Shown: positions 25,476-63,725 of the stretch, piece after piece
Position numbering within the stretch: position 1 is the stretch's first letter
Layout of the letters: each line of letters begins with the position of its first letter
IMG/VR virus record: IMGVR_UViG_3300035703_000033
Coordinates: 45,616 to 109,615 of that record
Length of the DNA: 64,000 bases
Source: a virus
Reading direction: 5' to 3' (one strand)
The notes under the pieces: generated by a model
The model's database searches: none
Told to the model about the DNA's origin: nothing
The model's input: the letters and a program-made list of their open reading frames with translations, nothing else
Position numbers and translations under genes: made by a program

Positions 25476-27668
25476 ATGGCATACGAAGATTTACTTAAGG
25501 ATACATCAGTTCAAAGCTCAGATCCTGGGTATTTCATTGTTACAATTACAGATCTTGATCCATTAAAGCTATACCCGCTTCAGTTAAGATGGAAGTATAA
25601 CGATAATACTTTTGGCCCATGGTCTGCTGTTAAATCAATAACAACTCCATCTGAAACAGTTCCATCAACTCCAAATTTAGGAGTCAGCGATGTTGTTGGC
25701 GGAAATGGTTATATAAAAATTACTTGGGATGGAAAAGATTCAAGCGGCAACCCAATACAAAATATTGACAGAGTTAATATACACATCTCTGGCGGTACAT
25801 TTGGTATAGGCACACAGGTCGTAGATTTTTTTAAAACAGCAGGAACAAAAACAATTGTTGCAGCTCCAGGAACATATATTGTTCAATTAAAATCTATAAC
25901 AGTAGCAAATACAACGTCATTCTTCAGCTTGTCTAGAACTGTAGAAGTTACAGGCACAGAAGACATAATATCTGATCCAGAAGATCCGTCAGCGCCAACA
26001 TTATCAGCTGGAAAGGCATCTATAATTGTAAGCTGGGACGGAAAGAATTCAAGCAATACAAATTTTACTGCAGGTAGCTTTTTTGGTGCAAAGGTATATA
26101 TTGGAAAAACTTCTAACTTTACTCCATCAGAAAATAATTGGGTTCATACACTAAACTTTGCAAATGGTTCCAACCAAGTCTCTATTGGTGTTGGAACAAT
26201 TATAGATAAGTCTACCTCAGAGTCTTTAGATTTTGATACAAATTACTATATTAAAATAGGTACACTAAACGCAAACGGTGAAACAACAGGAAACTTTATA
26301 TCAGCAACTGGGAACCCTATTCAAGTTGAAAAAACTGCGTTTAGCGAGATAGAGGCTGGTATCTTATCAGCAGATGCTTATATACAAGCAGGTCCATCAG
26401 GCGGGCAGAAGGTCATCCTTTCTGGAGGAGCTGAGCCTTTTGTTATATACGGCTCAGATGGTGTCACAAAACTTTTATCATTTCAATCTCAGTTGGGCGG
26501 TGTAGGAAAGTTAAGCATTATTGGATCTGGTACATTCACTGGAGATATTTCTGCTGCTACTGGAACGCTAACTAATGCTTTAAATATAGGAACGCCAAGC
26601 GGTGGACTTTACCCGTTTAGCGTTAGCTCTACTGGAGTTGTAAGAGCCATATCTGGAACTATTGGCGGAATGACACTAGCAGCTGATGGTATACAAAATA
26701 GTACAGGAAGCTTTAAGCTAGACACAGACGGTAAAGCAAAATTCGGTTCTATAGACATTTCTCCAACAATAGGTATTTATCATAATAGTGGATCATTTAG
26801 TCTTGGAGCAAATGGAAGTCTATCACTTACTGGAAGCGTTACAGCAACAGAAGGAAGTATAGCTAATTGGACAATAATTGGATCCACCTTAACTGCAAAT
26901 AACATAACGCTAGACGCATCTACTGGAACTATTTATTCAGGAAATTCTGCAGGATCTCATATTCAATTAAGTAATGCTTATGGCTTGCGACACATGAACA
27001 ATGCATCAACTACTGGAAACTTTGTTCTTACACCACTTGGTGATTTAACAATACGTGGAACAGTAACAGCAGTATCTGGTTATATTGGAACTCCAGAAAG
27101 TGGTTGGTATATAGATAGTGTGGGTATTAGAAACTCTCAATATGGAGTAACCCCAAACACGTTTTTATATAACCCAAATAGCTTTACCGATAATAATGTT
27201 ATATTTCAAATTGCTGATGCGGATAAGTTTAGTGTAACAAAGGCTGGAAATTTGACAGCTTCTAACGCAGACATATCTGGAACAATACGTGGTTCTGAAG
27301 TTATTGGTTCTACATTTTGGATTGGAGCAAATGCTAATTCTACTGATTATATAAATTGGGATGGTACGTTTAGCCTTGCAGGAGGAAGATTAGTTGGATC
27401 TCCATCTGTATTAACATTGAATCCAAATAAACTTGGTCCATCTCAATTTAAATTTTATTTAAACGCAGTAAGTAATGGCGACGGAACAGCTGGAGATAAA
27501 ACACTTGTTCAAGATGCAGATACAGGAGAAATAACATTAGGACGTGCATTCTTCTATGCTGGAAATCAATACCCAGATGGAAGAACAGATAGAAGTCAAT
27601 TTGCAGGTGGAGACCAAGGCTCTGGAGCATTTGATACTGGAGACATAATATTAAGTAGGAAAGCATAA
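25476..27668 (+). CDS. tail fibre protein with FnIII domains
   Basis: A 730-aa protein. The N-terminal 280 residues carry two to three FnIII-like domains (YFIVTITDLDPLKLYPLQLR; NGYIKITWDGKDSSGNPIQN; ASIIVSWDGKNSSNTNFTAG). The rest is a Gly/Ser/Thr-rich repeat region of the kind seen in J-like central fibres and long side fibres (GILSADAYIQAG, GTFTGDISAATGTLTNALNI, GTVTAVSGYIGTPESG), probably a trimeric beta-structured shaft. It may contact the receptor or carry the following large protein. The stop TAA shares a base with the next ATG. Confidence 0.75.
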   Translation: MAYEDLLKDTSVQSSDPGYFIVTITDLDPLKLYPLQLRWKYNDNTFGPWSAVKSITTPSETVPSTPNLGVSDVVGGNGYIKITWDGKDSSGNPIQNIDRVNIHISGGTFGIGTQVVDFFKTAGTKTIVAAPGTYIVQLKSITVANTTSFFSLSRTVEVTGTEDIISDPEDPSAPTLSAGKASIIVSWDGKNSSNTNFTAGSFFGAKVYIGKTSNFTPSENNWVHTLNFANGSNQVSIGVGTIIDKSTSESLDFDTNYYIKIGTLNANGETTGNFISATGNPIQVEKTAFSEIEAGILSADAYIQAGPSGGQKVILSGGAEPFVIYGSDGVTKLLSFQSQLGGVGKLSIIGSGTFTGDISAATGTLTNALNIGTPSGGLYPFSVSSTGVVRAISGTIGGMTLAADGIQNSTGSFKLDTDGKAKFGSIDISPTIGIYHNSGSFSLGANGSLSLTGSVTATEGSIANWTIIGSTLTANNITLDASTGTIYSGNSAGSHIQLSNAYGLRHMNNASTTGNFVLTPLGDLTIRGTVTAVSGYIGTPESGWYIDSVGIRNSQYGVTPNTFLYNPNSFTDNNVIFQIADADKFSVTKAGNLTASNADISGTIRGSEVIGSTFWIGANANSTDYINWDGTFSLAGGRLVGSPSVLTLNPNKLGPSQFKFYLNAVSNGDGTAGDKTLVQDADTGEITLGRAFFYAGNQYPDGRTDRSQFAGGDQGSGAFDTGDIILSRKA

Positions 27669-30600
27669 TGAGTTGGTGGAGAAAAGCAAGTTCTACCGAC
27701 ACGGGTAGTCATAATATAGATGGATGGATCAAAATACAGAGTATCTGGAGAAAAGCCAGCGCTTCTGATTCATACAACTCTTCACTAAGTACAAATCCTT
27801 GGGTAATAGATGGATGGCTTAGAATTAAAAGTGCTTGGAGGCACGAGGGTGGTGGAATTTGGTCAAGAATATTTAGTGCCTTAAGTGTTCCAATTCCAAA
27901 AGACCCATTACCTACATTATATTTTAAATGGCCAGATACATTTGAAACTACTGATTCTCCAATAAATGGCTCAAAGATGTTTGTAACAAGAGGAGCTTGG
28001 ACAGAAGAGCCAAATGAATTTAGAATAAGAATTCAGGAATTAGAGCCATACGGCACTTGGACTACAATATATGATACTACTAAAACATATACAGAATATT
28101 TAGAGTCAGATGATTTGGATAGATTCCCGTCAAATGCAAATGATTCATCTAGACCAACAATATCAAAGGCAAAGACCTTAGCTGGATATAAATTTAGAGC
28201 AAGGGTTGATGCTACTAATGTGAATAATGACACAAATTTTCATATTACAGATCCAATGATGCCAAGATTAGATTTTATAATATCTTCTTTAGTTGTAAAT
28301 TCAGAGACCTCATCTGGTGCAACATTTTCTTGGGACTATGCCCCGTATGTAAACTCTGGATCAATTAATTCATCAACAGACATATACTCTCAGGTTATAA
28401 CAATTTATGATGAGCTTGGAGATGAAGTTTATTCAGAATCAATTCCAGCAGGGACTACATATGTTATTCTTTCAAATGCAGCTTTGCTACCAGGCACTAC
28501 ATATACTGCAGAGTTATGGTCTATTGCGTACGACGGCTATGTTTTTGAAACAGATCAAACTTTTGATTTTACAAGTGTAGATTTTACTACAACTGATGCT
28601 ATACCAGAAATAGAAGTTAATCCAACCCTCACATTAATTTCTGGAGAATCTGCTTGCGTGGGTTCTGTTTATAGACTATCCAGTGGATCTTGGACAAATA
28701 ATCCAACAGGATTTAGATATTATTTTGATAGACAAAATTTTGCTGGTTCAAATATATTAACATATCCAAGTACTTCTACATATACTACTGATACATATTA
28801 TGACTATACTCTTGCAAGTGAAAATGCACAAGGAATAGATGCATATACAATTGCAGCAAATAATAATGGTGAAGCACAACTATATGCATATGCAACAAGC
28901 AGCATAACTGGGCCAATTAAATTACCAAGACCTACTGGTGTCTCTGCAACAGCATCTGGCTCTTCAATTAGTATAAGTTGGACCCCACACCCATCAGCTA
29001 CAAAATATAGAATTTATTGGGCTTCATCTTCAGCATACGAGCCTGGCCCAGCAAGTTCTTCTTTTGATGAAGAAAAAACCACCACTTCGTGGACATGGAG
29101 TTCAAGCGATCCAGATAAAAATGGAGTATCTCCATCTCAAGGTTCTTCATATGTTTTTTATGTTTCTCAATCTGTTGGAGGAACAATCTGGAGTAACTGG
29201 TCTACAGCTTCAGCTAGTGTAACAATGCCTTCAACTCCAGTAAATACATCAAGACCAGTATTTAGTTTACAGTCTGGTACAGCAAATAAAGTTGGATCCA
29301 CTTATAGATTATCTAGTGGATCTTGGGCAAATAATCCTACACCAACACAGTTTAGATATATACTAGAATTAAACAATGTTTCTGGCACACGTTTTGTGCA
29401 GTATCCGTCATCTACAGGATGGACAACAGACAGTTATTATGATCATACATTTTCTTCAAGCACATCCTCATCTATTTCTGGAGTAGTTGTTGCTTATAAT
29501 GGCTTGTCTGCAGAAGCTTATAGTACGACTAGTATTGGTCCAATTACATATCCAACATATACAATAACATATAATGGAAATGGCGGAACTCCAACAAGGT
29601 CTTCTGATATTGTAAATGCTGGTTCTTCAATTACTTTACCAAGTGCTTCAAGAAATTATAATACATTTTATGCATGGTATGATTCAGCAGTTGGTGGCTC
29701 ATATGTAGGGACTGCTGGAGCTACCTATACACCTACATCAGATATCACCCTATATGCTAGATGGACTCCAATAGAATGGACTGTAACCTGGAATGGAAAT
29801 GGAGGTACTGTAAATAATAATAATAGCAGCACTTATGCAGTTACATTTAATGCAGGTTCTACTCTTACAGCTCCATATGCAACTAGGGCGAACTATACAC
29901 ATACTGGTTGGCGTTACCCGTCGTCTGGAGATATTTGGTATAGCGCCTCACCAGGAGGCTCATTCACACCAGATAGTAGCATAATAATGTATGCAACATG
30001 GTCAAGGAATAGTTATTTCCTATATTATTCAGAAGAAGGTGGAACGGCAGTTTCAGATGCTACAGTATTGGCTGGAGATTCAACAACACTACCAGCAACT
30101 ACAAGAACTGGATATACGTTTAATGGTTGGTATAGCGATGGTATAAGGTTGGGAGGAGCTGGTTCTACTTATACGCCAACATCTAATATGACAATATATG
30201 CATCCTGGACACCAATACAATATACTGTAACTTGGAATGCAAATGGTGGCTCTGTAAGCCCAAGCAGCACTACAGGAAACTTTGATTCAGTTATATATGC
30301 CCCAACACCAACCAGGGCTGGGTATACCTTTTTATATTGGAGAGATGATACAAGAGCTCAAAATTATCTTTATCAGGTAAATGCAGGAGGTCAATGGACA
30401 ATTGCTGGAAATATTACATTCTATGCTATTTGGCAAGTTGCAATTCCGCCAACACCATCATGGGTAAGTGCTTCTACAGACAGAACTGATGGAATTAGAT
30501 TAGAGTGGGGTTTGATTGATGGAGCAACTTCTTATGAAATTTGGTGGGGATCTAGCGCACCTTCAGATAGTTTATCTACACCTGATTTTTATCCAGGCAA

Positions 30601-31306
30601 TACTTACTACTATTTAGATACATCAGTTAGTTCTGGTAGCTCTAGAACATACTATATTCGTGCAAGAAATTCAGCAGGAGCTTCATCTTGGTCTAGTGGA
30701 ATAACTGGAACTAGGGCGAACACACAATATACTGTAACTTGGAATGCCAACGGAGGTACTGGCGGAGGATCTACTACCCAAAATGCTGGAGTAGCACATA
30801 TAGCACCATCACCTGGAACCAGAACTGGCTATACTTTTAATGGATATTATGACAGAACATCTGGAGACTATTTATATGGACCAATTGCATCTGGTGGCTC
30901 ATTTAACCCGCCATCTTCAATTACAATGAGCGCAAGATGGTCATCAGCTACCACCACAACTACTACCACTACTACAACAACAACCACTACAACGTCATGC
31001 GTATGTAATTACTCAGATTATGGAACTTATTATTTCTCACCACAATGCTGTTCTGCTAATGCTCCGTACACGGGCCTCCCAGCTGGGCTTTCCCCAGGAT
31101 CTGGGTCATGTTGTCCAAATGTCAACAAGCCAGCTGCCACCACAACTACCACCACAACCACAACAACCACGGCAGCTCCATGTAATACCGTATATTGGAA
31201 ATGCAATTTAACAGATGTGCAAAATTATAGTAATCCATGTCAATTTGTTGGTCAATGTAGGTATGAGGGGAATGACTATTATTCTGCAGGATGTTGCTCA
31301 GTATGA
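27668..31306 (+). CDS. large tail fibre with InlB B-repeats and poly-Thr/Cys-rich modules
   Basis: A 1,212-aa mosaic protein. The N-terminal region has W-rich repeats (MSWWRKASSTD, IWRKASASDS, WLRIKSAWRHEG). FnIII-like domains occupy about residues 90-620 and again near 930-1020. Five InlB B-repeat (Listeria-Bacteroides) domains are visible between about 630 and 1095, each with a YTVTWNANGG-type start and an ITLYARW-type end. The C-terminus has two poly-threonine tracts (about 15 and 11 Thr), each followed by a Cys-rich module with CC pairs (VCNYSDYGTYYFSPQCC; CQFVGQC...AGCC). Thr codons vary among ACA, ACC, ACT and ACG, so the tract is kept at protein level. Likely the distal host-binding fibre; Thr tracts are candidate O-glycosylated linkers. 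Confidence 0.8.
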   Translation: MSWWRKASSTDTGSHNIDGWIKIQSIWRKASASDSYNSSLSTNPWVIDGWLRIKSAWRHEGGGIWSRIFSALSVPIPKDPLPTLYFKWPDTFETTDSPINGSKMFVTRGAWTEEPNEFRIRIQELEPYGTWTTIYDTTKTYTEYLESDDLDRFPSNANDSSRPTISKAKTLAGYKFRARVDATNVNNDTNFHITDPMMPRLDFIISSLVVNSETSSGATFSWDYAPYVNSGSINSSTDIYSQVITIYDELGDEVYSESIPAGTTYVILSNAALLPGTTYTAELWSIAYDGYVFETDQTFDFTSVDFTTTDAIPEIEVNPTLTLISGESACVGSVYRLSSGSWTNNPTGFRYYFDRQNFAGSNILTYPSTSTYTTDTYYDYTLASENAQGIDAYTIAANNNGEAQLYAYATSSITGPIKLPRPTGVSATASGSSISISWTPHPSATKYRIYWASSSAYEPGPASSSFDEEKTTTSWTWSSSDPDKNGVSPSQGSSYVFYVSQSVGGTIWSNWSTASASVTMPSTPVNTSRPVFSLQSGTANKVGSTYRLSSGSWANNPTPTQFRYILELNNVSGTRFVQYPSSTGWTTDSYYDHTFSSSTSSSISGVVVAYNGLSAEAYSTTSIGPITYPTYTITYNGNGGTPTRSSDIVNAGSSITLPSASRNYNTFYAWYDSAVGGSYVGTAGATYTPTSDITLYARWTPIEWTVTWNGNGGTVNNNNSSTYAVTFNAGSTLTAPYATRANYTHTGWRYPSSGDIWYSASPGGSFTPDSSIIMYATWSRNSYFLYYSEEGGTAVSDATVLAGDSTTLPATTRTGYTFNGWYSDGIRLGGAGSTYTPTSNMTIYASWTPIQYTVTWNANGGSVSPSSTTGNFDSVIYAPTPTRAGYTFLYWRDDTRAQNYLYQVNAGGQWTIAGNITFYAIWQVAIPPTPSWVSASTDRTDGIRLEWGLIDGATSYEIWWGSSAPSDSLSTPDFYPGNTYYYLDTSVSSGSSRTYYIRARNSAGASSWSSGITGTRANTQYTVTWNANGGTGGGSTTQNAGVAHIAPSPGTRTGYTFNGYYDRTSGDYLYGPIASGGSFNPPSSITMSARWSSATTTTTTTTTTTTTTTSCVCNYSDYGTYYFSPQCCSANAPYTGLPAGLSPGSGSCCPNVNKPAATTTTTTTTTTTAAPCNTVYWKCNLTDVQNYSNPCQFVGQCRYEGNDYYSAGCCSV
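30949..31173 (+). other. two poly-threonine linkers with Cys-rich modules
   Basis: Within the large fibre gene, ACN codon runs at about 30949-30993 and 31138-31170 encode roughly 15 and 11 consecutive threonines, each followed by a cysteine-rich module. Synonymous codons are mixed, arguing for selection on the amino acid sequence instead of recent slippage. Mucin-like glycosylated spacers are a plausible interpretation. Confidence 0.8.
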
Positions 31307-31318
31307 TGATAAATACTA

Positions 31319-31347
31319 TTGACAAAAATAATCTAAATTGGTAAAAT
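31319..31347 (+). promoter_or_regulatory. strong promoter, likely leaderless start
   Basis: Perfect TTGACA (31319-31324), 17-bp spacer, TAAAAT (31342-31347) with extended TGG. The ATG at 31354 lies 6 nt after the -10 box without a Shine-Dalgarno sequence. Confidence 0.75.
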
Positions 31348-31353
31348 GGCATA

Positions 31354-31713
31354 ATGTTATTAAGTAAAGATATTATTCACATAATAAATCCTGGGAATGA
31401 GCAATATTTTAATGAAGAGGTACATGTTGCCGCATGTTTTATTATTGATGATATAGTTGTTGAAAATGGTATGTATTCTAGAGAGTTTTTTGATTTGTTC
31501 AATAGATCTCATATTGAAGAAAAAGAACAATATGAAAACGGAGATATACGCATTGCATTAACAGAAAGCGGTAGTGTGGAAAAACAACACATGATATTAG
31601 ATGAAAGGCTTGCTTCTATAATGTTAAGTAATCCACAGTTAATTGAAGTCCCAGAAAATATGCGATGGGTTACAATTGGGTCTCAATATATAGATGGAGT
31701 GTTCTATCCATGA
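31354..31713 (+). CDS. hypothetical protein
   Basis: A 119-aa acidic protein that I do not recognise (IINPGNEQYFNEEVHVAACF, EFFDLFNRSHIEEKEQYENG, NMRWVTIGSQYIDGVFYP). No zinc, membrane or Walker motif. It starts the group placed after the large fibre and is driven by the best promoter in this area. It overlaps the next gene by 4 nt (ATGA), which precedes the GT60-like transferase, so it may belong to the same modification unit; that is inference from context. Confidence 0.65.
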   Translation: MLLSKDIIHIINPGNEQYFNEEVHVAACFIIDDIVVENGMYSREFFDLFNRSHIEEKEQYENGDIRIALTESGSVEKQHMILDERLASIMLSNPQLIEVPENMRWVTIGSQYIDGVFYP

Positions 31714-31964
31714 CAGAAAAAACTAAATGGGAACAGTATTTAGAAAAGCAAAAAGATAAAAGTCCAAATAAATCTGTAAAGCCGTGGGATTTAATAAATC
31801 CAAATACAGAATATGTGGATAAAGAAATTTCAGCACAAAGATATGAAATTTGTAAGCAGTGTCCTGAGCTTTTTGATTTAACAAAACAGTGTAAAAAATG
31901 CGGATGCTTTATGGCATTAAAAACTAAGCTGACAGAGGCTACATGCCCTATAGGTAAATGGTAA
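31710..31964 (+). CDS. small Cys-rich zinc-binding protein
   Basis: An 84-aa protein with four to five cysteines in a zinc-ribbon-like arrangement: RYEICKQCPELFDLTKQCKK, then CGCFMALKTKL and TCPIGKW. Small proteins with this C-x2-C...C-x2-C-x-C...CP-GKW signature are frequent in aquatic phages; function unknown. ATG at 31710 chosen because it overlaps the previous stop by 4 nt; an upstream in-frame start at 31665 would overlap by 49 nt. The stop shares a base with the start of the glycosyltransferase gene. Confidence 0.7.
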   Translation: MTEKTKWEQYLEKQKDKSPNKSVKPWDLINPNTEYVDKEISAQRYEICKQCPELFDLTKQCKKCGCFMALKTKLTEATCPIGKW

Positions 31965-32857
31965 TGTCTAGTATATTTGTTCAAATACCATCTTATCATG
32001 ATTATGAATTAAAAAGAACTATTGTTGATGCCATAAAACAAAGCTCTGGATCACATATAATTAATTTTGGAGTTCATGTTACATATTTTGACAATATTGA
32101 TTTTGATATTCCAGACCTTCCAAATGTAAGGCTAGAGATATCCAAAGCTCCTAAAAATATTGGAGTCGGAGCTAGCAGGTATATAGCAAATTCACTATAT
32201 TCTGGGGAAGACTATTACTTGCAAATAGATTCTCATATGAGGTTTGAAAAAAATTGGGATCATAATTTAATTACAGATTATCTTGATAAAAAAGCACATG
32301 GAGCAAATCCAGTAATATCCGCCTACCCAGGGGCATATGAGTACAATAATGGTAGCCTCAATATACTAAATAGCAAAGCACATGTTGCATATACAGATTT
32401 TATTCAGGAGTTAAGTTTTCAGGGAGATGTTGTTCCGCATCAAAGAGCCGTAGGTAATTTCTCCAATAATATTTTTACTAGATCTGTTTCTGCTGCATCT
32501 ATTTTTTCAGATGGATCAATTGCGTCCATAAAGCCAAACAAAAAGATATTTTTCTGGGGAGAAGAGATATTAACTGCCGTAAGGCTTTTTACACATGGGT
32601 ATGACCTCATGCTTCCAGTTTCTCAAAACCTATATCATCTTTATTACAAGCCAGAAGATGGGTTTAAAAATTTAAGAAGGCAGGTTGGGGTAGATTTTGA
32701 ACAAGAATCTATCTTAATGGATATAGAGTCAAAAAAGGAAATAGAATCGATTATTTTGAACAATATTGTTGGGGAGTATGCGCTGGGCAGCTCTAGGACC
32801 TTGGCTGATTACCAAGAGTATGCTAGAATAGATTTTACCAATAAGGTAATTCTTTAA
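31964..32857 (+). CDS. GT60-like polypeptide GlcNAc-transferase
   Basis: A 297-aa glycosyltransferase with the PF11397 (GlcNAc) pattern: N-terminal SSIFVQIPSYHDYELKRTIV (GT-A first strand and helix), APKNIGVGASRYIANSLY, the metal/sugar-binding DSH in YYLQIDSHMRFEKNWD, and the C-terminal FFWGEEILTAVRLFTHGYDL, with YHLYYK. Known GT60 members transfer GlcNAc to hydroxyproline of Skp1 (Dictyostelium) or threonine of mucins (Trypanosoma cruzi). Here it is the third gene after a fibre with poly-Thr tracts, an attractive substrate (inference). ATG at 31964 overlaps the preceding stop; an ATG two codons earlier is possible. A second copy lies at 59.4-60.4 kb. Confidence 0.8.
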   Translation: MSSIFVQIPSYHDYELKRTIVDAIKQSSGSHIINFGVHVTYFDNIDFDIPDLPNVRLEISKAPKNIGVGASRYIANSLYSGEDYYLQIDSHMRFEKNWDHNLITDYLDKKAHGANPVISAYPGAYEYNNGSLNILNSKAHVAYTDFIQELSFQGDVVPHQRAVGNFSNNIFTRSVSAASIFSDGSIASIKPNKKIFFWGEEILTAVRLFTHGYDLMLPVSQNLYHLYYKPEDGFKNLRRQVGVDFEQESILMDIESKKEIESIILNNIVGEYALGSSRTLADYQEYARIDFTNKVIL

Positions 32858-44198: not shown

Positions 44199-44379
44199 TG
44201 AGTTTATTGGCCCAAAGCCAACAGTAGATTCTATGTCTAATTTAGAAAAATTAATTGGTCAAAAACCTTGTTCTAAATGTGATCTTGATGTCACAGAATA
44301 CTATTGGGATCCAGCCAACTTTATAATGACATGGACATGCAACGCTGGACATTTAAATACAGTAAAGGTCAATGTATGA
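44185..44379 (+). CDS. small zinc-ribbon protein
   Basis: A 64-aa protein. Two PKP/KP-type repeats (EFIGPKPTVDS and KLIGQKPCSKCDLD) are followed by a metal site: CSKCDLDVTEYYW and WTCNAGHLNTVKV (C-x2-C...C-x3-H). Starts inside the 3' end of recA. Function unknown. Its stop overlaps the start of a dioxygenase gene. Confidence 0.65.
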   Translation: MPNINEFIGPKPTVDSMSNLEKLIGQKPCSKCDLDVTEYYWDPANFIMTWTCNAGHLNTVKVNV

Positions 44380-45164
44380 TATTTGATTACGAAAAAGTTG
44401 TTGTTGCTCCACAAATAGTAATATATAAAAATATATTTAAGCACAGCGCTGAGCTAATCAATTTATTAAATTCTGATAGGGATTCTATAATTTCCCCATG
44501 GTCTTCTTGGTATGAAAACGGATATAGATGTGGCACTTTATTTAAAGATATGGATATTTTAGAGTCAGATCCAGAATCAATAAAAGAAGAAAAAAGATAC
44601 CTAAAAGAATTCTATGATATCTTAGAGTTTATTAAAAAAGATTATTTATTAGAATTTAATAAAGATAATGGCATATGGCCAGACTTTATTTCTGATTGGG
44701 ATCAACTTCTAAATAATAACATAGATTATTATATTGATTTTTTTAGATATGATATTAACAAAATTGATTTATCTGAAAATAAATTATTGATGGAGTATCA
44801 TGTTGATGAAGATGAGTACCTGGCAGAAGGTGAGATTAAGTCTCTTAAAAATGTTGCAACAATAAATATTTATTTAAATAATGAGTATCATGGTGGTGAA
44901 ATTTGCGCCTATGATTCGTTTACAAATAAAAGCTATAGTTACAAAGCTAACCCAGGTGATGCCGTAATTATGCCATCCTGTTCACCATTTTACCATGCTG
45001 TCAAAAAATTTAGTGGAAGCGATAGATATTTTATGAGATCATTTTTTAAATATATTTCAACGTCAACAAGCACAAAATCTGAAATAGAAAAGCAAAAAGA
45101 TGAATATTTAAAAAATAATTTACAAATGCGTAAAGTGGATATAGATGAGATTGAGGTATTTTGA
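44376..45164 (+). CDS. 2OG-Fe(II) dioxygenase, prolyl-4-hydroxylase-like
   Basis: A 262-aa dioxygenase. N-terminal YEKVVVAPQIVIYKNIFKHS matches the entry strand of its paralogues. Iron ligands H-V-D in LMEYHVDEDEYLA (nt 44798-44806), distal His in FYHAVKKF (about 44991), followed by YFMRSFF with the 2OG-binding Arg. Core strand INIYLNNEYHGGEICAYDS. I use ATG 44376, which overlaps the previous stop by 4 nt and retains the conserved start; upstream in-frame codons at 44304 would overlap the zinc-ribbon gene. Isolated from the other dioxygenases, inside the recombination region. Substrate unknown. Confidence 0.85.
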   Translation: MIFDYEKVVVAPQIVIYKNIFKHSAELINLLNSDRDSIISPWSSWYENGYRCGTLFKDMDILESDPESIKEEKRYLKEFYDILEFIKKDYLLEFNKDNGIWPDFISDWDQLLNNNIDYYIDFFRYDINKIDLSENKLLMEYHVDEDEYLAEGEIKSLKNVATINIYLNNEYHGGEICAYDSFTNKSYSYKANPGDAVIMPSCSPFYHAVKKFSGSDRYFMRSFFKYISTSTSTKSEIEKQKDEYLKNNLQMRKVDIDEIEVF

Positions 45165-45463: not shown

Positions 45464-46148
45464 TATTACAGCATATATTGATGATCCAGTACGTGGGCAT
45501 GCAAAGATTAGACAGCTTAGCCCAAAGCGAGAGTGGATGAATTCTGGTCATTATAATTGCTATCCACTAAATGTAGCAAATAGTGTAGGCTACGGTGTAT
45601 ATTTTGATGAAGATATATCTTTTATATGGGATGGTGTTGCAGAAAATCCACCTAAAGGAATACTTGGATCTAAGTATATATGGGAGGGAAGAAGTAATGG
45701 AGCAGCAAGTTTAGCTACAGGGCTTGTTTTTAAAAGTGATCCAGACGTAAGTCTTATGACTATGCCAATTCCTAATTATTTTAGAAAAGAATTTAATGTC
45801 GTAAGCACTGTTTTATCTACTTCATTTTTTACTGGAGAACTGTCAATAGCATTGCAGATACAGGAAGACTACATAAATAAAGAAATTGTTTTGCCAGCAA
45901 ATACTGACATAGCTTGTATAATTCCAATATCTATTTCTCAATTTAATGAGTCTACTATAAATATTGCAAATCAAAGATACCCATTTGATAGAATTCATGA
46001 TAGAAAAGAATATGTTGATGCGTTACATAAGCACTTCAGAGAAACTGGCAAAAGATTAAGACTTTATAAAAATGGTAAAGATGAAAAGAATAATAAAATA
46101 GGAGATCATGAATTGTCTTCCTTAAAAATGAATGTAAAAGAGGTATAA
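45456..46148 (+). CDS. DUF6065-like protein
   Basis: A 230-aa protein similar in pattern to the DUF6065 family found in phages and marine bacteria: an N-terminal HYNCYPLNVANSVGYGVYF (C-PL-AN-GY), strand ISFIWDG, and the C-terminal VLPANTDIACIIPISISQFN. Members of this family resemble small-molecule hydroxylase-associated or cupin-like proteins, but no function is established. Nothing here shows a catalytic residue set that I can name. It overlaps the preceding gene by 8 nt. Confidence 0.55.
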   Translation: MYNITAYIDDPVRGHAKIRQLSPKREWMNSGHYNCYPLNVANSVGYGVYFDEDISFIWDGVAENPPKGILGSKYIWEGRSNGAASLATGLVFKSDPDVSLMTMPIPNYFRKEFNVVSTVLSTSFFTGELSIALQIQEDYINKEIVLPANTDIACIIPISISQFNESTINIANQRYPFDRIHDRKEYVDALHKHFRETGKRLRLYKNGKDEKNNKIGDHELSSLKMNVKEV

Positions 46149-55799: not shown

Positions 55800-55860
55800 A
55801 AGAATGATAGTTAAAAGAAAAGTAAAAAAAATGCTTAAAAAAAATAGGTATACATACTAA
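55783..55860 (+). CDS. 25-aa highly basic peptide
   Basis: A 25-residue gene with a strong GAGGAG 7 nt upstream of its ATG. It overlaps the end of the SGNH gene by 17 nt, and its TAA shares a base with the ATG of the carbamoyltransferase gene. About half of its residues are Lys or Arg, alternating with hydrophobic residues (MFKIIRRMIVKRKVKKMLKK). It may be a leader controlling the downstream gene or an antimicrobial-like amphipathic peptide. Confidence 0.55.
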   Translation: MFKIIRRMIVKRKVKKMLKKNRYTY

Positions 55861-57296
55861 TGATAATTTTAGGAATTAACGAAACATCTCATGATGCATC
55901 TGTTTCTTTAATAAAAGATGGACAAATACTGTTTTCTGCTCATGCAGAAAGATATAGTAAAATTAAAAATGATTGGTATAACAATCAAGATATCTATCAA
56001 GATATGCTTAATTACGGAACACCAACACACATAGCTTATTATGAAAGACCTCAATTAAAAAGATCAAGATTGCTACTTCGTGGTGGAGCTGGAGAATGGA
56101 AGCCAAATATTCCTATGAATTTACCAGTCAAATACTTTTCTCATCATCATTCTCATGCAGCAGCTGGCTACTATACAAGTAGGTTTGATGACGCAGTTAT
56201 TGTCGTTTTAGATTCAATTGGAGAATATAATACTTCTACCGTGTGGGTTGGAGAAGGTGAAAGTATTAAATTAAAATTTAAACAAAATTATCCAGTTAGC
56301 TTTGGATTATTCTATTCAGCATTTACTCAATTAGTTGGTCTTATGCCAAATCAAGAAGAGTATATTCTCATGGGTATGGCTGGATATGGTGATCCTAATA
56401 AATATTTAAAAAAAGTCTTAGAATACTTTCCTTCGCCGTACCAACAAAAATATAATTTTCATAAGGGTATACATGATTGGGGCGTAATATCAGGAGATCA
56501 AGATAGATTTGATATAGCTGCAGCTGTTCAAGTTGTTTATGAAAGTAATTTAATGCAATTTATGAATATGGCAAAATCTATAACTGGCAAAGATAATTTG
56601 GTTTTTATGGGAGGTTGTGCATTAAATTGTTCTGCTAATACAAAGCTATGGAAAATATTTAAGGATATTTGGATTATGCCAAACCCAGGGGATGCTGGTA
56701 GTTCATTAGGTGCAGCAGCTGCTTTATATGGTAAGCATATAAAATGGAATGGACCGTACCTTGGTACAGATATTAGTGGTGCTTGGCCAAGACATGAAAT
56801 ATTAAAAGAGTTAAAAGAAAATAAAATAGTAGCTGTAGCCTCTGGACGAGCAGAATATGGTCCAAGAGCTTTAGGAAATAGAAGCATACTAGCAGATCCA
56901 AGGGATCCAAATATTAAAGATAAAGTTAATCAAATTAAACAAAGAGAAAAATTTAGACCGTTTGCTCCAGTTGTTTTAGAGCATTTTGCACACGAGTGGT
57001 TTGATATGCCTACTAGATCTACTCCTTATATGCAGTATGCTATTAGATGTAAACAGCCTGATAAAATACCATCAGTTGTGCATATTGATGGCACATCAAG
57101 AGTTCAAACTGTTAATGAGTATAATCATCCTGAGCTACACATGCTACTAAGACAATGGTACTGGGAAACTGGTGTTCCAGTTTTATTAAATACTAGTTTA
57201 AACATAAAAGGACAACCACTCCTTAATGATCAAAATGATATAATTGAGTGGCAAAATAAGTACGACGCTAAGATATATGGAGGAAATAATGTTTAA
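55860..57296 (+). CDS. carbamoyltransferase (NodU/CmcH-like)
   Basis: A 478-aa carbamoyltransferase that transfers a carbamoyl group from carbamoyl phosphate to a hydroxyl, for example on a sugar or antibiotic. N-terminal ASKHA-like domain: ILGINETSHDASVSLIKDGQ, YFSHHHSHAAAGYYTS (metal-binding His), VIVVLDSIGEYNTSTVWVGE. The C-terminal YrdC-like domain carries GRAEYGPRALGNRSILADPR and REKFRPFAPVVLEHFAHEWF, the conserved signature. All key motifs are present, so it is probably active. Located between an SGNH enzyme and a dioxygenase, suggesting glycan or small-molecule tailoring. Confidence 0.92.
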   Translation: MIILGINETSHDASVSLIKDGQILFSAHAERYSKIKNDWYNNQDIYQDMLNYGTPTHIAYYERPQLKRSRLLLRGGAGEWKPNIPMNLPVKYFSHHHSHAAAGYYTSRFDDAVIVVLDSIGEYNTSTVWVGEGESIKLKFKQNYPVSFGLFYSAFTQLVGLMPNQEEYILMGMAGYGDPNKYLKKVLEYFPSPYQQKYNFHKGIHDWGVISGDQDRFDIAAAVQVVYESNLMQFMNMAKSITGKDNLVFMGGCALNCSANTKLWKIFKDIWIMPNPGDAGSSLGAAAALYGKHIKWNGPYLGTDISGAWPRHEILKELKENKIVAVASGRAEYGPRALGNRSILADPRDPNIKDKVNQIKQREKFRPFAPVVLEHFAHEWFDMPTRSTPYMQYAIRCKQPDKIPSVVHIDGTSRVQTVNEYNHPELHMLLRQWYWETGVPVLLNTSLNIKGQPLLNDQNDIIEWQNKYDAKIYGGNNV

Positions 57297-58125
57297 TGAA
57301 CAATTTAGGAAAAATCCAAACATCATACAGTTGGCTCCTAAATTATTTATTTATAAAAATTTTATAAATGGAGATTTATTAGAAAAAATAAATAATATTT
57401 GCAAGGGTCACATCAAGGATGTACCGATAAGTCATAATATTGATTGGTATCAGAATAGAACAACATCCTTGGTATTTGATTTGCTTGAGGTATGGGAGCA
57501 AGCTAGCGAGCTAATTTACCCAGATTTGGTAATGCATCCGCAAGCTTCAATGCTTATTAGCAGGCCAGGAGATGGCGGTATGTTTACACATGCTGATGCA
57601 CCAGGTCAGCCTCACGAAGACTGTGGCCCCGTTTGTGGCACATGTGAAATAGCTTCTGCAAAATTGATTTCAGAAGATAGATGGAATACATGCTGTAGAT
57701 TACACTACGGTTTAGTTATATATTTTGGTGACTGGTCAGGCGGAGAAATATTCTATGACCATATAAATAAAGATGGAGAATATGTTTCAGAGGAGATAGT
57801 GTTATCTGAAGATGAAAAGTTAACTATAAAGCCAGAAAATGGTGACTTAGTTATACACGGCGCACATGGAGATTATGCACATGGCACAAAAGAAGTTACA
57901 GATGGAGTTAGATTTGCATTTTCTAATTTTGTTCTTCCAGCTCACACTAACCCAGGCACTTTTTATAACTACAAAACCAAAGAGTATCTAGATCAAATCG
58001 AAGAGGTAAAAAAGAAAAAAGATATAAAGCTTTGGCTAAAGATTATGAATGAGTTCTCTTGGCAAGATCCACCAGAGGTATTAGAAGAAAAAGAAAAGGG
58101 CATAAGTGGTATCAGGTACAGGTAG
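57289..58125 (+). CDS. 2OG-Fe(II) dioxygenase with Cys-rich insert
   Basis: A 278-aa dioxygenase. ATG 57289 is chosen for its GGAGG five bases upstream and small overlap with the previous gene. N-terminal NIIQLAPKLFIYKNFINGDL parallels the paralogues. Iron ligands H-A-D in FTHADAPGQ (about nt 57590) and a distal His in DYAHGTKEV (about 57877), with the 2OG-binding Arg in VRFAFSNF. An insert after the HAD motif contains CGPVCGTC and later CC, a potential metal site absent from the other copies. Cotranscribed with the carbamoyltransferase; likely tailors the same substrate. Confidence 0.85.
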   Translation: MFNEQFRKNPNIIQLAPKLFIYKNFINGDLLEKINNICKGHIKDVPISHNIDWYQNRTTSLVFDLLEVWEQASELIYPDLVMHPQASMLISRPGDGGMFTHADAPGQPHEDCGPVCGTCEIASAKLISEDRWNTCCRLHYGLVIYFGDWSGGEIFYDHINKDGEYVSEEIVLSEDEKLTIKPENGDLVIHGAHGDYAHGTKEVTDGVRFAFSNFVLPAHTNPGTFYNYKTKEYLDQIEEVKKKKDIKLWLKIMNEFSWQDPPEVLEEKEKGISGIRYR

Positions 58126-59362: not shown

Positions 59363-60356
59363 AATTTCAAAAATATTTATTGCCATAACAAGCGCTAATG
59401 AAAAAGACTTAAAGCAAACTGTTTTGAGTGCTATAAAAAACTCAGATGATCCAGACAGTTTAGTTTTTGGTATTTTTGATTTATGTATGAATGGGTTCCC
59501 GCAAACAGATTTTACAGAATTTAAAAACGTTATATATATGCCAATGATTTTTAGCGGTACCCAAGGAATAGGATTAGCCCGACTTATAACATCTTCTATA
59601 ATAACTCCAGATTGTGATTATGTTTTACAGCTTGATTCTCATATGTTGTTTACTAAATCTTGGGATACAAAAATAAAAAATAGATATAAGGATTTAGAAT
59701 CTAAATATAACAAACCAATAATAAGTTCAAGATGTAATTATTGGGAATACGATAATGAAATGAATATAGTTGTAGATGGTAAAGTTGTTGAAGATATATA
59801 TAATTTTGAGTATAATAGTAATTCTCCTGTTTCAAAGTTAGTCTTTAAAGACTACCAGACTTCTTTATTTCAAGACGGATACCCAACTATAACTGGGATC
59901 GATACTGAAGAAATGGTATATGCTGAGCATAGCTTGATATCCGCACAGTTTACATTTAGTAGGCCAGATCTGTACTCAGAAATAGTTCATGACCCCAGAC
60001 TTCCTTGGGGAGGAGATGAGCCAATATATTCTCTAAGGGCATGGACAAGAGGCTATCAAATGTTTTCAATTCAAGATACAATATGTTTTCACTATAATAA
60101 GAACACCATGACTGCTGGTTATAATAAAGATAATCAAGAGGATTGGAGAAATTTAAAAAATAATGATAATAGGCTTTTTAAGCTATATCAAAAAAGATAT
60201 AATGATGGGCTGACTATAATGAAAGACATATTGCTTGGAAACTATTTGGGGTATTGGGGAGCTGAGTCTCTATCAGAATTAAAAGATTTTGAAAGTGCTT
60301 GCGGTATTAGTTTTAACGATTTTTATTCTACCAAAAAATCTGCTTTTATGATATAA
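59358..60356 (+). CDS. GT60-like polypeptide GlcNAc-transferase (copy 2)
   Basis: A GT60-like (PF11397-type) transferase: KIFIAITSANEKDLKQTVLS (GT-A entry strand and helix), YMPMIFSGTQGIGLARLITS, DYVLQLDSHMLFTKSWDTKI (DSH metal/sugar site) and PWGGDEPIYSLRAWTRGYQM followed by FHYNK. The conserved N-terminus lies upstream of the first canonical start (TTG 59424), in a frame open from 59325 but without ATG/GTG/TTG. Translation may begin at ATT 59358 or 59364 coupled to the preceding stop, or by +1 frameshifting from the small gene. Substrate unknown; see the copy at 31.96 kb. Confidence 0.75.
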   Translation: MKISKIFIAITSANEKDLKQTVLSAIKNSDDPDSLVFGIFDLCMNGFPQTDFTEFKNVIYMPMIFSGTQGIGLARLITSSIITPDCDYVLQLDSHMLFTKSWDTKIKNRYKDLESKYNKPIISSRCNYWEYDNEMNIVVDGKVVEDIYNFEYNSNSPVSKLVFKDYQTSLFQDGYPTITGIDTEEMVYAEHSLISAQFTFSRPDLYSEIVHDPRLPWGGDEPIYSLRAWTRGYQMFSIQDTICFHYNKNTMTAGYNKDNQEDWRNLKNNDNRLFKLYQKRYNDGLTIMKDILLGNYLGYWGAESLSELKDFESACGISFNDFYSTKKSAFMI

Positions 60357-60888: not shown

Positions 60889-61452
60889 ATGAATATAATT
60901 AATCATTCCGAAAGCATCTGGGAGTATCAAGACGTACACGATTCTATAGATGGTTTACTCGGCAATTTGATGTCTGGGTATTGGATGGATTATACTAATG
61001 TTGGCGGAGGCAATACTATTATTGGAGCCTCTACTGGACTTCATCCAGACTCTAAATACTATCATGAAGTTTTAAAAATTTTTACTAATTGCTTTACTGA
61101 TTATTTAAATAAAAAAGATATAGATATACCAATGGAAAATCTAGATGTGATGCCTATTCCAGATAGGGATTGGTTAGAGCAAAAATATTTTACAGTTAGA
61201 AGATATGACCCAGGCTCAGTAATGTTTCCACACGAAGATTATGGAGTTCCGTTGAGGCCAAAATATACAGCACTTCTTTATTTTAATGATAACTATGAAG
61301 GTGGAGAGATAGCTTTTCCAGACAAAAACATTTCCATAAAGCCTAAAAGAGGATCAGTAATAATTTTTCCAAGCATAACAATGCACGAAGTTAAGTTAAT
61401 GATAAGTGGTCAAAGATATTTGACATCATGCTACCTTTACGAAAAGAATTAA
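60889..61452 (+). CDS. 2OG-Fe(II) dioxygenase, prolyl-4-hydroxylase-like
   Basis: A 187-aa dioxygenase. Iron ligands H-E-D in VMFPHEDYGVP (about nt 61231) and a distal His in SITMHEVKLM (about 61382). The core strand ALLYFNDNYEGGEIAFP and turn KRGSVIIFPS are nearly identical in pattern to the 832-1446 gene. The position of the usual Arg is Ser/Thr (QRYLTSCYLY); a preceding Arg may replace it. Own promoter with a leader hairpin and GAGAGG ribosome-binding site. Substrate unknown. Confidence 0.85.
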   Translation: MNIINHSESIWEYQDVHDSIDGLLGNLMSGYWMDYTNVGGGNTIIGASTGLHPDSKYYHEVLKIFTNCFTDYLNKKDIDIPMENLDVMPIPDRDWLEQKYFTVRRYDPGSVMFPHEDYGVPLRPKYTALLYFNDNYEGGEIAFPDKNISIKPKRGSVIIFPSITMHEVKLMISGQRYLTSCYLYEKN

Positions 61453-61688: not shown

Positions 61689-63725
61689 TTGACTAGGACT
61701 AAAGCATGGAGACTATCATTAGCCACAATTTTGGGATTTGGTTGGCTATTTCTAACTCCTGCCTATAGTGATGATCCACTAAGCTTAGCAGCTCAAGAGA
61801 TACAAAAATTAAACAATAGTGTAAATGATTTAAGCTATAAAGATGAGTTTAATTCTTTAATAAATATAGCAGAATCTAAATATAATGATGCAGTTAATGC
61901 AAAAACTGCTAAAAATAACGCATTTGCTGCATATGATACAGCAGTTGAAAATGAAGCAGCAGCGCTATCCACAAGAGATGCTGCACAGGTAGCAGTAGAT
62001 GGCCAGACCGTAGTGGTTGCAACAGCTTTAACTAATAAAAATAATGCTCAAGATTCTTTAGATATAGCAAACATAAATCTTCAAACAATTCAATCTGCAA
62101 TTCAAAATGCTGGCAGTTCAGGACTTCAATATACAGTATATCATCTTGTCAGGGGATTTAATGGAGTGGCAATTCCTGACGCATATATATGCAGCGGAAC
62201 GTGGAACTCTAACTCTATGAATCTACCAATTTGTGGGTATTATGAAGATATCGTTGTAAAGTTTACTGGACAAATAACTGTACCGTCTCATTGGACAGAA
62301 ACAAAGTTTGCAGGCTACACAGATGATGGCTTTAGAATGTACATTAACGGGCAAATTGCAATCAATAATTGGGTGGAGCAAGGGGCAACCTGGAGTCCCT
62401 ATTCCCCAATATATAATGTAACTAATGACAAGACTTTTGACGTAGAAATTTGGTGGTATAACGGTGGAGGCCCAGGATCCTATCATTTGGGCTGGGCAAT
62501 CCCTGGAGGATGGACTGGTGCAGGATGTGACTATACTGGAGGATGGGGAGTAGGTTTTAGTTGTAACTTAAACACATTTTCACATGGGTCTGGGCCAACA
62601 CAAGCACAAATTAATGAATATAACTCTGCATTAGAAGCACAGCAGGATGCACAAACAAATTATAATAATAAGCTTGCTATATACAATCAAGAAGTTCAAA
62701 ACCTCACAAGCCTTACACAAAACCTAACAACGGCTAATCAAAACCTAACAACGGCACAAACAAACCTAACAACTTCCCTAGCAAATAAAAATAATGCAAT
62801 AGCAACATATGATCAATCTATTATTGATTTAAATAATTCTATTGCTGATGCTTGGGATTATTATGAAGAACAAAAAGCAAGAGAAATTGCTACTGCATTA
62901 GCTCAAGCCGCCGCTGCTGCTGCAAATCAACCAGCTCCAGAGCCAAGTCCTGAAGTCACTATTGAGCCTTCTCCTCAACCATCTCCTGAGCAAACAGAAC
63001 AAGTTGATCCCACTCCAGAGCCAACGCCTGAAACCACAAATGAGGCGACTCCAGAGCCAAGCCCTGAGCCTGAGACTTCTCCAGAGCCTGAACCAGAGCC
63101 TTCACCTCAGCCAACGGATACAGATCCAGCCCCAACTCCTGAACCAGAGCCAGCTCCTGAACCAACTTTGGAAGAAACACAAGACAATGTTATCATAAAA
63201 GATGAAGACTTGAAAGAACTCATCCCAGAAAAAGGGGAGGGAACTGCAGAGGATCTTTCTGGAGTTATAGCTAATTTAACAAGTAAGGATAATAAATTAG
63301 TTAAATTAAGTACAGAGCAAATTGCTGCTGTTAGTAAAACTCTAATTGCCTTAACAAATGAAGCAAAGGCTGAGGTTGCACAAGATCTTGGAATTAAAGC
63401 AACTGAAGTTGCTGTAATTGCAGAGGCAATGAAATCTAATCCAGAATTGGCTACAGCGTTTGTTGAGTTTAAAGATAGAGAGGCAGAAGCAGGAGACTCC
63501 GCAATGCCCTACACACTAGCTGATGCAACTACAGAGGTACAAACGGAAGCATTTTTGGCGGATCCAATAGGAGCAATTTTAAATATAGATTTGAGTAAAG
63601 TTTTAAACCCATCTGAATGGGGTAAAGATATGACTGATGACCAACGAGAAAAAGCACAGGAAGTTGTAGTCCCAGTAATTATCGCATCAAATATTGTGGC
63701 AGCAGCCATGACTAGGAGGATATAA
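61689..63725 (+). CDS. secreted PA14-domain protein with Pro-rich spacer
   Basis: A 678-aa exported protein. TTG start after AAGGAG; a signal peptide (TKAWRLSLATILGFGWLFLT, cleavage near PAYS-DDP). Coiled coils at about 35-135 and 290-395. A PA14 carbohydrate-binding domain at about 148-275 (YHLVRGFNGVAIPDAYICSG, FAGYTDDGFRMYINGQIAIN, SYHLGWAIPGGW). Pro-rich spacer with PEPSPEP-type repeats at about 412-497, then an acidic/helical region and a hydrophobic C-terminus (VVVPVIIASNIVAAAMTRR) that may anchor it. A phage protein placed on the host surface or virion; could mediate exclusion, adhesion or lysis control. The spacer is a candidate for hydroxylation/glycosylation. Confidence 0.8.
   Translation: MTRTKAWRLSLATILGFGWLFLTPAYSDDPLSLAAQEIQKLNNSVNDLSYKDEFNSLINIAESKYNDAVNAKTAKNNAFAAYDTAVENEAAALSTRDAAQVAVDGQTVVVATALTNKNNAQDSLDIANINLQTIQSAIQNAGSSGLQYTVYHLVRGFNGVAIPDAYICSGTWNSNSMNLPICGYYEDIVVKFTGQITVPSHWTETKFAGYTDDGFRMYINGQIAINNWVEQGATWSPYSPIYNVTNDKTFDVEIWWYNGGGPGSYHLGWAIPGGWTGAGCDYTGGWGVGFSCNLNTFSHGSGPTQAQINEYNSALEAQQDAQTNYNNKLAIYNQEVQNLTSLTQNLTTANQNLTTAQTNLTTSLANKNNAIATYDQSIIDLNNSIADAWDYYEEQKAREIATALAQAAAAAANQPAPEPSPEVTIEPSPQPSPEQTEQVDPTPEPTPETTNEATPEPSPEPETSPEPEPEPSPQPTDTDPAPTPEPEPAPEPTLEETQDNVIIKDEDLKELIPEKGEGTAEDLSGVIANLTSKDNKLVKLSTEQIAAVSKTLIALTNEAKAEVAQDLGIKATEVAVIAEAMKSNPELATAFVEFKDREAEAGDSAMPYTLADATTEVQTEAFLADPIGAILNIDLSKVLNPSEWGKDMTDDQREKAQEVVVPVIIASNIVAAAMTRRI

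Follow-up and report, generated by a model that had tools for sequence, protein, structure and literature searches.

The DNA analyzed here is a 64,000-nt window (positions 45,616 to 109,615) of a 109,615-base IMG/VR virus record, and its source is a freshwater phage. Downstream of tape-measure and tail genes, a plus-strand open reading frame (ORF) at 27668 to 31306 encodes a tail fiber of 1212 aa, in which a Pfam profile search found five InlB-type (Flg_new) repeats (PF09479, E = 1e-33). As the original prediction had described, the fiber ends in two poly-Thr tracts with Cys-rich modules: T15 at residues 1095 to 1109 (30950 to 30994, plus strand) and T11 at residues 1158 to 1168 (31139 to 31171, plus strand), each adjoined by a Cys-rich module in a C terminus that reads ...RWSSA-T15-SCVCNY...CCPNVNKPAA-T11-AAPC...CCSV. 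The final 140 aa hold 12 Cys residues versus one in the remaining 1072, and the longest Thr run obtained among 20,000 shuffles of the fiber protein was nine. Both tracts are encoded by a mixture of ACA, ACT, ACC, and ACG codons and are therefore not a simple DNA repeat, which makes DNA slippage an unlikely origin. T15 and T11 form dense, low-complexity stretches of the Thr/Ser (Pro) type seen in mucin-type proteins, and this part of the fiber is the acceptor that we propose below.

Three plus-strand genes, starting at 31354, 31665, and 31958, follow the fiber. The first (31354 to 31713; 119 aa) has no assigned function and no Pfam match, and a weakly similar counterpart (27% identity) is retained in a relative (L231) that lacks the third gene. 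The second (31665 to 31964) encodes a small, Cys-rich, zinc-ribbon–like protein (DUF6171, E = 2.9e-7; phrog_13558, E = 1.3e-16) and overlaps the start of the third; because it is also retained in L231, it is not specific to the system described here.

GT60 genes and 2OG oxygenases of the window

The third gene (31958 to 32857, plus strand) encodes a 299-aa protein that we assign to the GT60 (PF11397) polypeptide glycosyltransferases on the basis of its sequence profile, AlphaFold2 model, and fold matches, and it is the enzyme proposed to act on the fiber. The protein covers positions 99 to 351 of the 352-position PF11397 profile (E = 2.4e-36; bit score 126, cut-off 21), matches phrog_24687 "glycosyltransferase" (E = 4.7e-28), and contains the QIDSHMRF, GEEI, and THGYD motifs from which a PF11397 transferase had been predicted at this position. 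In a set of 51 sequences, the invariant positions include T21, G69, R74, E84-D85-Y86, F96, W100-D101, and G214, as well as D91 and H93 of the DxH metal-binding motif D91-S92-H93 (32228 to 32236, plus strand) and E202-E203 of the WGEE motif (32561 to 32566, plus strand). H227 (32636 to 32638, plus strand), conserved at 90% or more in the same set, is by analogy with GT27 enzymes the likely C-terminal metal-binding His. The AlphaFold2 model (pLDDT 93.9) was compared with the Protein Data Bank (PDB) using Foldseek, and the 45 best matches were all GT27 polypeptide GalNAc-transferases (best E = 2.7e-10), with moderate TM-scores of about 0.52 to 0.58. Sequence searches of the PDB detected no solved relative of this protein or of the phrog_4417 protein discussed below. 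GT60 and GT27 enzymes have in common a DxH variant of the DxD motif and belong to the same clade of the GT-A tree (PMC7185993); the phage protein combines the PF11397 family profile with DxH in place of DxD and a GT-A fold close to GT27. Relatives of the enzyme were found at 70 viral-contig loci, and the 34 nonredundant sequences at 38% identity or more form a single clade. Bacterial relatives reach only ~25 to 30% identity; they occur in genome bins of SAR86, Magnetococcales, Burkholderiaceae, and Rickettsiales (L318-L331).

The whole record contains two PF11397 matches. The second, a distant GT60-like gene whose presence in the window had also been predicted, lies at 59424 to 60356 on the plus strand and is likewise significant in the profile search (E = 1.4e-21). 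Its product is 23% identical to the first enzyme and falls outside its clade, no Thr tract was found beside the gene, and a scan with its sequence returned only one viral relative, which is near-identical. We found no support for this protein as the fiber's partner, and it is probably a separate system. The gene is located ~2 kb beyond a NodU/TobZ-like carbamoyltransferase gene (55860 to 57296), and in Xanthomonas phage XacN1 (L408) a carbamoyl transferase gene directly follows a GT60 gene. Near the end of the record, the window encodes a 678-aa protein (61689 to 63725) that matches a PA14 domain weakly and contains a long Pro/Glu/Thr-rich region of PEPSPEP repeats.

The GT60 family includes the Skp1-modifying enzyme Gnt1, which requires a prolyl hydroxylase (PMC6939170), and several 2-oxoglutarate (2OG) oxygenase genes are present in the window. 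The original prediction counted at least five intact hydroxylase-like genes and envisaged a hydroxyproline branch, in which phage 2OG-Fe(II) oxygenases would make hydroxyproline and the GT60 enzyme would modify it, in the manner of Gnt1 and Skp1. Four of the genes pass the 2OG-Fe(II) Pfam cut-off (3 to 854, 832 to 1446, 44304 to 45164, and 60889 to 61452), one is below it (57244 to 58125, E = 0.038), and another (1454 to 2113) has no Pfam match to the family. The distribution of these genes is independent of GT60: many GT60-negative relatives encode five to nine copies, four GT60-positive records of 78 to 87 kb encode none or one, and one GT60-positive record of 109 kb encodes eight. No prolyl hydroxylase linked to the transferase was found, the oxygenase genes are distant from the fiber, and the tracts beside the enzyme in some lineages are Thr-rich and Pro-free (ATTATT, TTAATTAA). 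On the oxygenase distribution and the Pro-free tracts we reject the hydroxyproline branch, which we consider highly improbable.

Distribution of GT60 and Thr tracts among relatives

The predicted co-occurrence of GT60-like genes with poly-Thr fibers was examined in two ways. From the enzyme side, loci extending 2 kb or more upstream were screened for ORFs, no more than 6 kb upstream, that contain a low-complexity tract in which nine or more of 18 residues are Thr. A Thr tract was detected at 32 of 40 close-relative GT60 loci versus 1 of 16 distant loci. Weaker Thr repeats are present at several loci outside the 32, including L027 (TTAAPATTAAP), L032 (TPAPTPPPTT), and L014, where the strict rule missed T5 tracts accompanied by the same Cys modules; three loci with a close GT60 relative (L019, L028, and L042) gave no clear Thr tract in the upstream search. 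The repeat unit varies by lineage (T-runs, ATT, TTAA, PTPT, and STTTPTPT), and Thr is the common element.

A set selected on neither trait was assembled from relatives retrieved with a tail gene unrelated to both, whose end lies 2.2 kb upstream of the fiber; they were clustered at 95%, and a minimum of 6.5 kb of downstream sequence was required. All six GT60-positive clusters in this set have a Thr tract; among the 69 GT60-negative clusters, two have a T6-T7 run and none has T8 or longer (Fisher p 1.4e-7 and 5e-9, values that ignore kinship). Kinship is handled by a test on the tail-gene tree, on which the GT60 state changes at least 12 times: the tract follows GT60 in six to seven of nine independent tree pairs and shows the opposite pattern in none (p = 0.016, with power set by the six to seven informative pairs). 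When whole records were searched, GT60 and (ACN)8 were found together in 9 of 87. One record (L238) has the tract without GT60 and ends 0.55 kb past the fiber, before the usual GT60 position; two have GT60 without the tract, the gene being separated from the tail module by ~30 kb or more. The association is thus strong and recurs independently.

A natural comparison is given by the GT60-positive L234 and the GT60-negative L231, in which most neighboring tail and downstream genes are 74 to 100% identical and the small genes of the fiber-to-enzyme interval are more diverged (27 to 51% identity). The two fibers are homologous at both ends, and the homologous site reads SYPSASTPPTCTTTTTTTTTTTSCTC in L234 versus SYPSASNPPACPTTTWYCTES in L231. 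The GT60 gene is present in L234 alone, where it separates the zinc-ribbon gene from the conserved gene that comes next. In these phages, then, a transferase gene is tied to the gene of a virion protein.

Fiber and enzyme both lie within a variable cassette, which would also fit an enzyme whose target is DNA or a surface polymer of host or phage (wall teichoic acid, for instance, modified so as to block superinfection), with the fiber linked to it only through a shared host-range cassette. Such roles are known or have been proposed for phage transferases (e.g., PMC10202952), and the teichoic-acid GlcNAc-transferase TarP appeared at rank 49 of the fold search (E = 1.2e-6). However, cassette linkage leaves the tie between tract and enzyme unexplained, given that fibers with the same ends lack the tract when GT60 is missing; the best fold matches are polypeptide transferases; and the unrelated family phrog_4417 pairs with Thr tracts too. 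We therefore regard a surface-polymer or DNA target as unlikely.

Poly-Thr proteins and candidate transferases of other families

Poly-Thr proteins are also frequent in phages that lack GT60, so the tract must either work with other partners or serve some independent purpose. A scan of viral contigs with a T11 tract sampled at least 104 loci with an ORF holding T9 or longer, and among the matches listed GT60 was present in the examined stretches at only two, so poly-Thr does not by itself mean GT60. Aligning distant tail proteins yielded no segment usable as a search query. Among the same listed matches, phrog_4417, a family annotated as "unknown function" and unrelated to GT60, was detected by profile at 13 poly-Thr loci, and it lies downstream at 12 of the 70 that have a suitable ORF within 3 kb. 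The AlphaFold2 model of a phrog_4417 protein (pLDDT 93.9) had GT-A glycosyltransferases as its top 50 matches (WbbM, UGGT, GT6, and GT8/glycogenin; best E = 4.6e-7), and phrog_4417 is accordingly modeled as a predicted GT-A glycosyltransferase. A run of T5 or longer was found within 2.5 kb upstream at 57 of 60 phrog_4417 loci (13 of 16 after 80% clustering). None of 124 tail-gene control loci contains the family, nor does any GT60 locus.

Genes of phrog_4417 sit directly beside poly-Thr virion proteins at L073, L089, L100, L112, L121, L126, L137, L142, L158, L177, L184, L187, L392-L396, and L403-L405, in many unrelated phages. The family is present in isolated Enterococcus, Lactobacillus, Lactococcus, and Staphylococcus phages, in several of which the major capsid or a tail protein ends in a Thr tail: phiFL1A (...GETTTTTKPTTTTTKPTTTTTTTQG), iLp84 (...VPTTTTTTTSK), bIL285 (...KTTTTTTTTTRHD), and 1706 (...VTTTTTTTTTTHHD). 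In a hand-picked, nonrandom comparison of 16 records, Thr tracts were found near phrog_4417 in 8 of 10, and the remaining two, SAC12B and LP65, are the most divergent and lack them; the other six records, from phages whose capsid protein is homologous but which show no phrog_4417 in the stretch examined, have no such Thr tail. A third transferase-like group (PF00535), with DCHVLL and GFGGEE motifs resembling the DxH type of GT27, is encoded directly downstream of poly-Thr proteins at L132 (4243 to 5085), L139 (3895 to 4746), and L161 (680 to 2758), each on the minus strand. Radical SAM/SPASM genes adjoin the transferase at two GT60 loci and one phrog_4417 locus (L079, 1865 to 2911; L163, 7176 to 8150; L187, 2 to 931, minus strand), and their products might modify the same peptide as the transferase.

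Most sampled poly-Thr phages encode neither GT60 nor phrog_4417 in the stretches examined, as would be expected if the tracts functioned without sugar, as bare linkers of a flexible or beta-prone kind, and the GT60 association were a side effect of co-inheritance within the cassette. Those stretches are short, though, and transferases of other families (PF00535, with its DxH-like motif) adjoin some of the tracts; in independent lineages with related tail modules, long tracts are absent wherever GT60 is. Bare linkers consequently seem to us quite improbable. We consider it reasonably probable that self-glycosylation by a Thr tract and a dedicated transferase evolved more than once in phages of many hosts, with GT60 acting on the tail fibers of freshwater phages, phrog_4417 acting on the Thr tails of major capsid, tail, and neighboring proteins of Enterococcus, Lactobacillus, Lactococcus, Staphylococcus, and Chryseobacterium phages, and perhaps further families. 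If so, poly-Thr would act as a general tag marking phage structural proteins for glycosylation, its widespread and so far unexplained occurrence in them would be accounted for, and phrog_4417 would acquire a function. A phage version of this kind, with small enzymes and an acceptor tag encoded alongside, could yield simple tools for protein O-glycosylation in bacteria.

Proposed mechanism and comparison with known systems

Relatives gain and lose the enzyme and the Thr runs together, and the phage therefore probably sugar-coats its own fiber. We put at roughly 75% the probability that the GT60 enzyme encoded at 31958 to 32857 O-glycosylates the Thr tracts of the upstream fiber, producing mucin-like linkers. 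The observations behind this reading are family membership, catalytic motifs, the GT-A fold, genetic linkage, and repeated joint gain and loss; from them we infer the acceptor, sugar, linkage, catalysis, timing, and benefit of the reaction. During infection, the GT60-type polypeptide O-glycosyltransferase would add sugar to the hydroxyls of consecutive fiber threonines, before or during virion assembly. The sugar would probably be α-GlcNAc drawn from the host pool of UDP-GlcNAc, a peptidoglycan precursor at hand in the bacterial cytoplasm. The distal fiber would then consist of dense, stiff, protease-resistant, mucin-like linkers between Cys-rich tip modules, and the effect on the virion may be stiffening, shielding, or surface interaction. 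The original interpretation is thus partly supported: GT60 similarity and co-occurrence favor the enzyme's action on the Thr linkers of its own fiber, and the hydroxyproline branch finds no support.

Thr-run mucin-type O-glycosylation is best known from eukaryotes (animals and Trypanosoma cruzi). Glycosylation of phage virions is itself already known, and the new element here would be Thr-tract (mucin-type) targeting by GT60 and phrog_4417 enzymes; a literature search of incomplete coverage, which does not prove novelty, found no description of such targeting and no report of a phage GT60 glycosyltransferase. According to papers citing Freeman et al. 2023 (PMC11256854, PMC12691614), through which we make the comparison, mycobacteriophages glycosylate their own virions; that system likewise uses phage transferases on phage structural proteins, but as described there the targets are capsid proteins of actinobacterial phages.

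A GT60-related activity of T. cruzi takes KPPTTTTTTTTKPP as an acceptor in vitro and requires Mn2+ (PMC3769586). The phage enzyme resembles it in Pfam family, DxH motif, and Thr-run acceptor, and differs in being phage-encoded, 299 aa long, and free of a Golgi, with a predicted activity and a proposed acceptor that is a virion fiber with Cys-rich modules. Gnt1 of Skp1 shares the GT60 family and the glycosylation of protein in the cytoplasm, but it requires a prolyl hydroxylase and a hydroxyproline acceptor (PMC6939170), a linkage not found at this locus. The animal GT27 GalNAc-transferases, which start mucin O-glycans, share the GT-A fold and DxH motif and provide the best structural matches, whereas the phage protein is 12 to 15% identical to them, has no lectin domain, and belongs to PF11397 by sequence.
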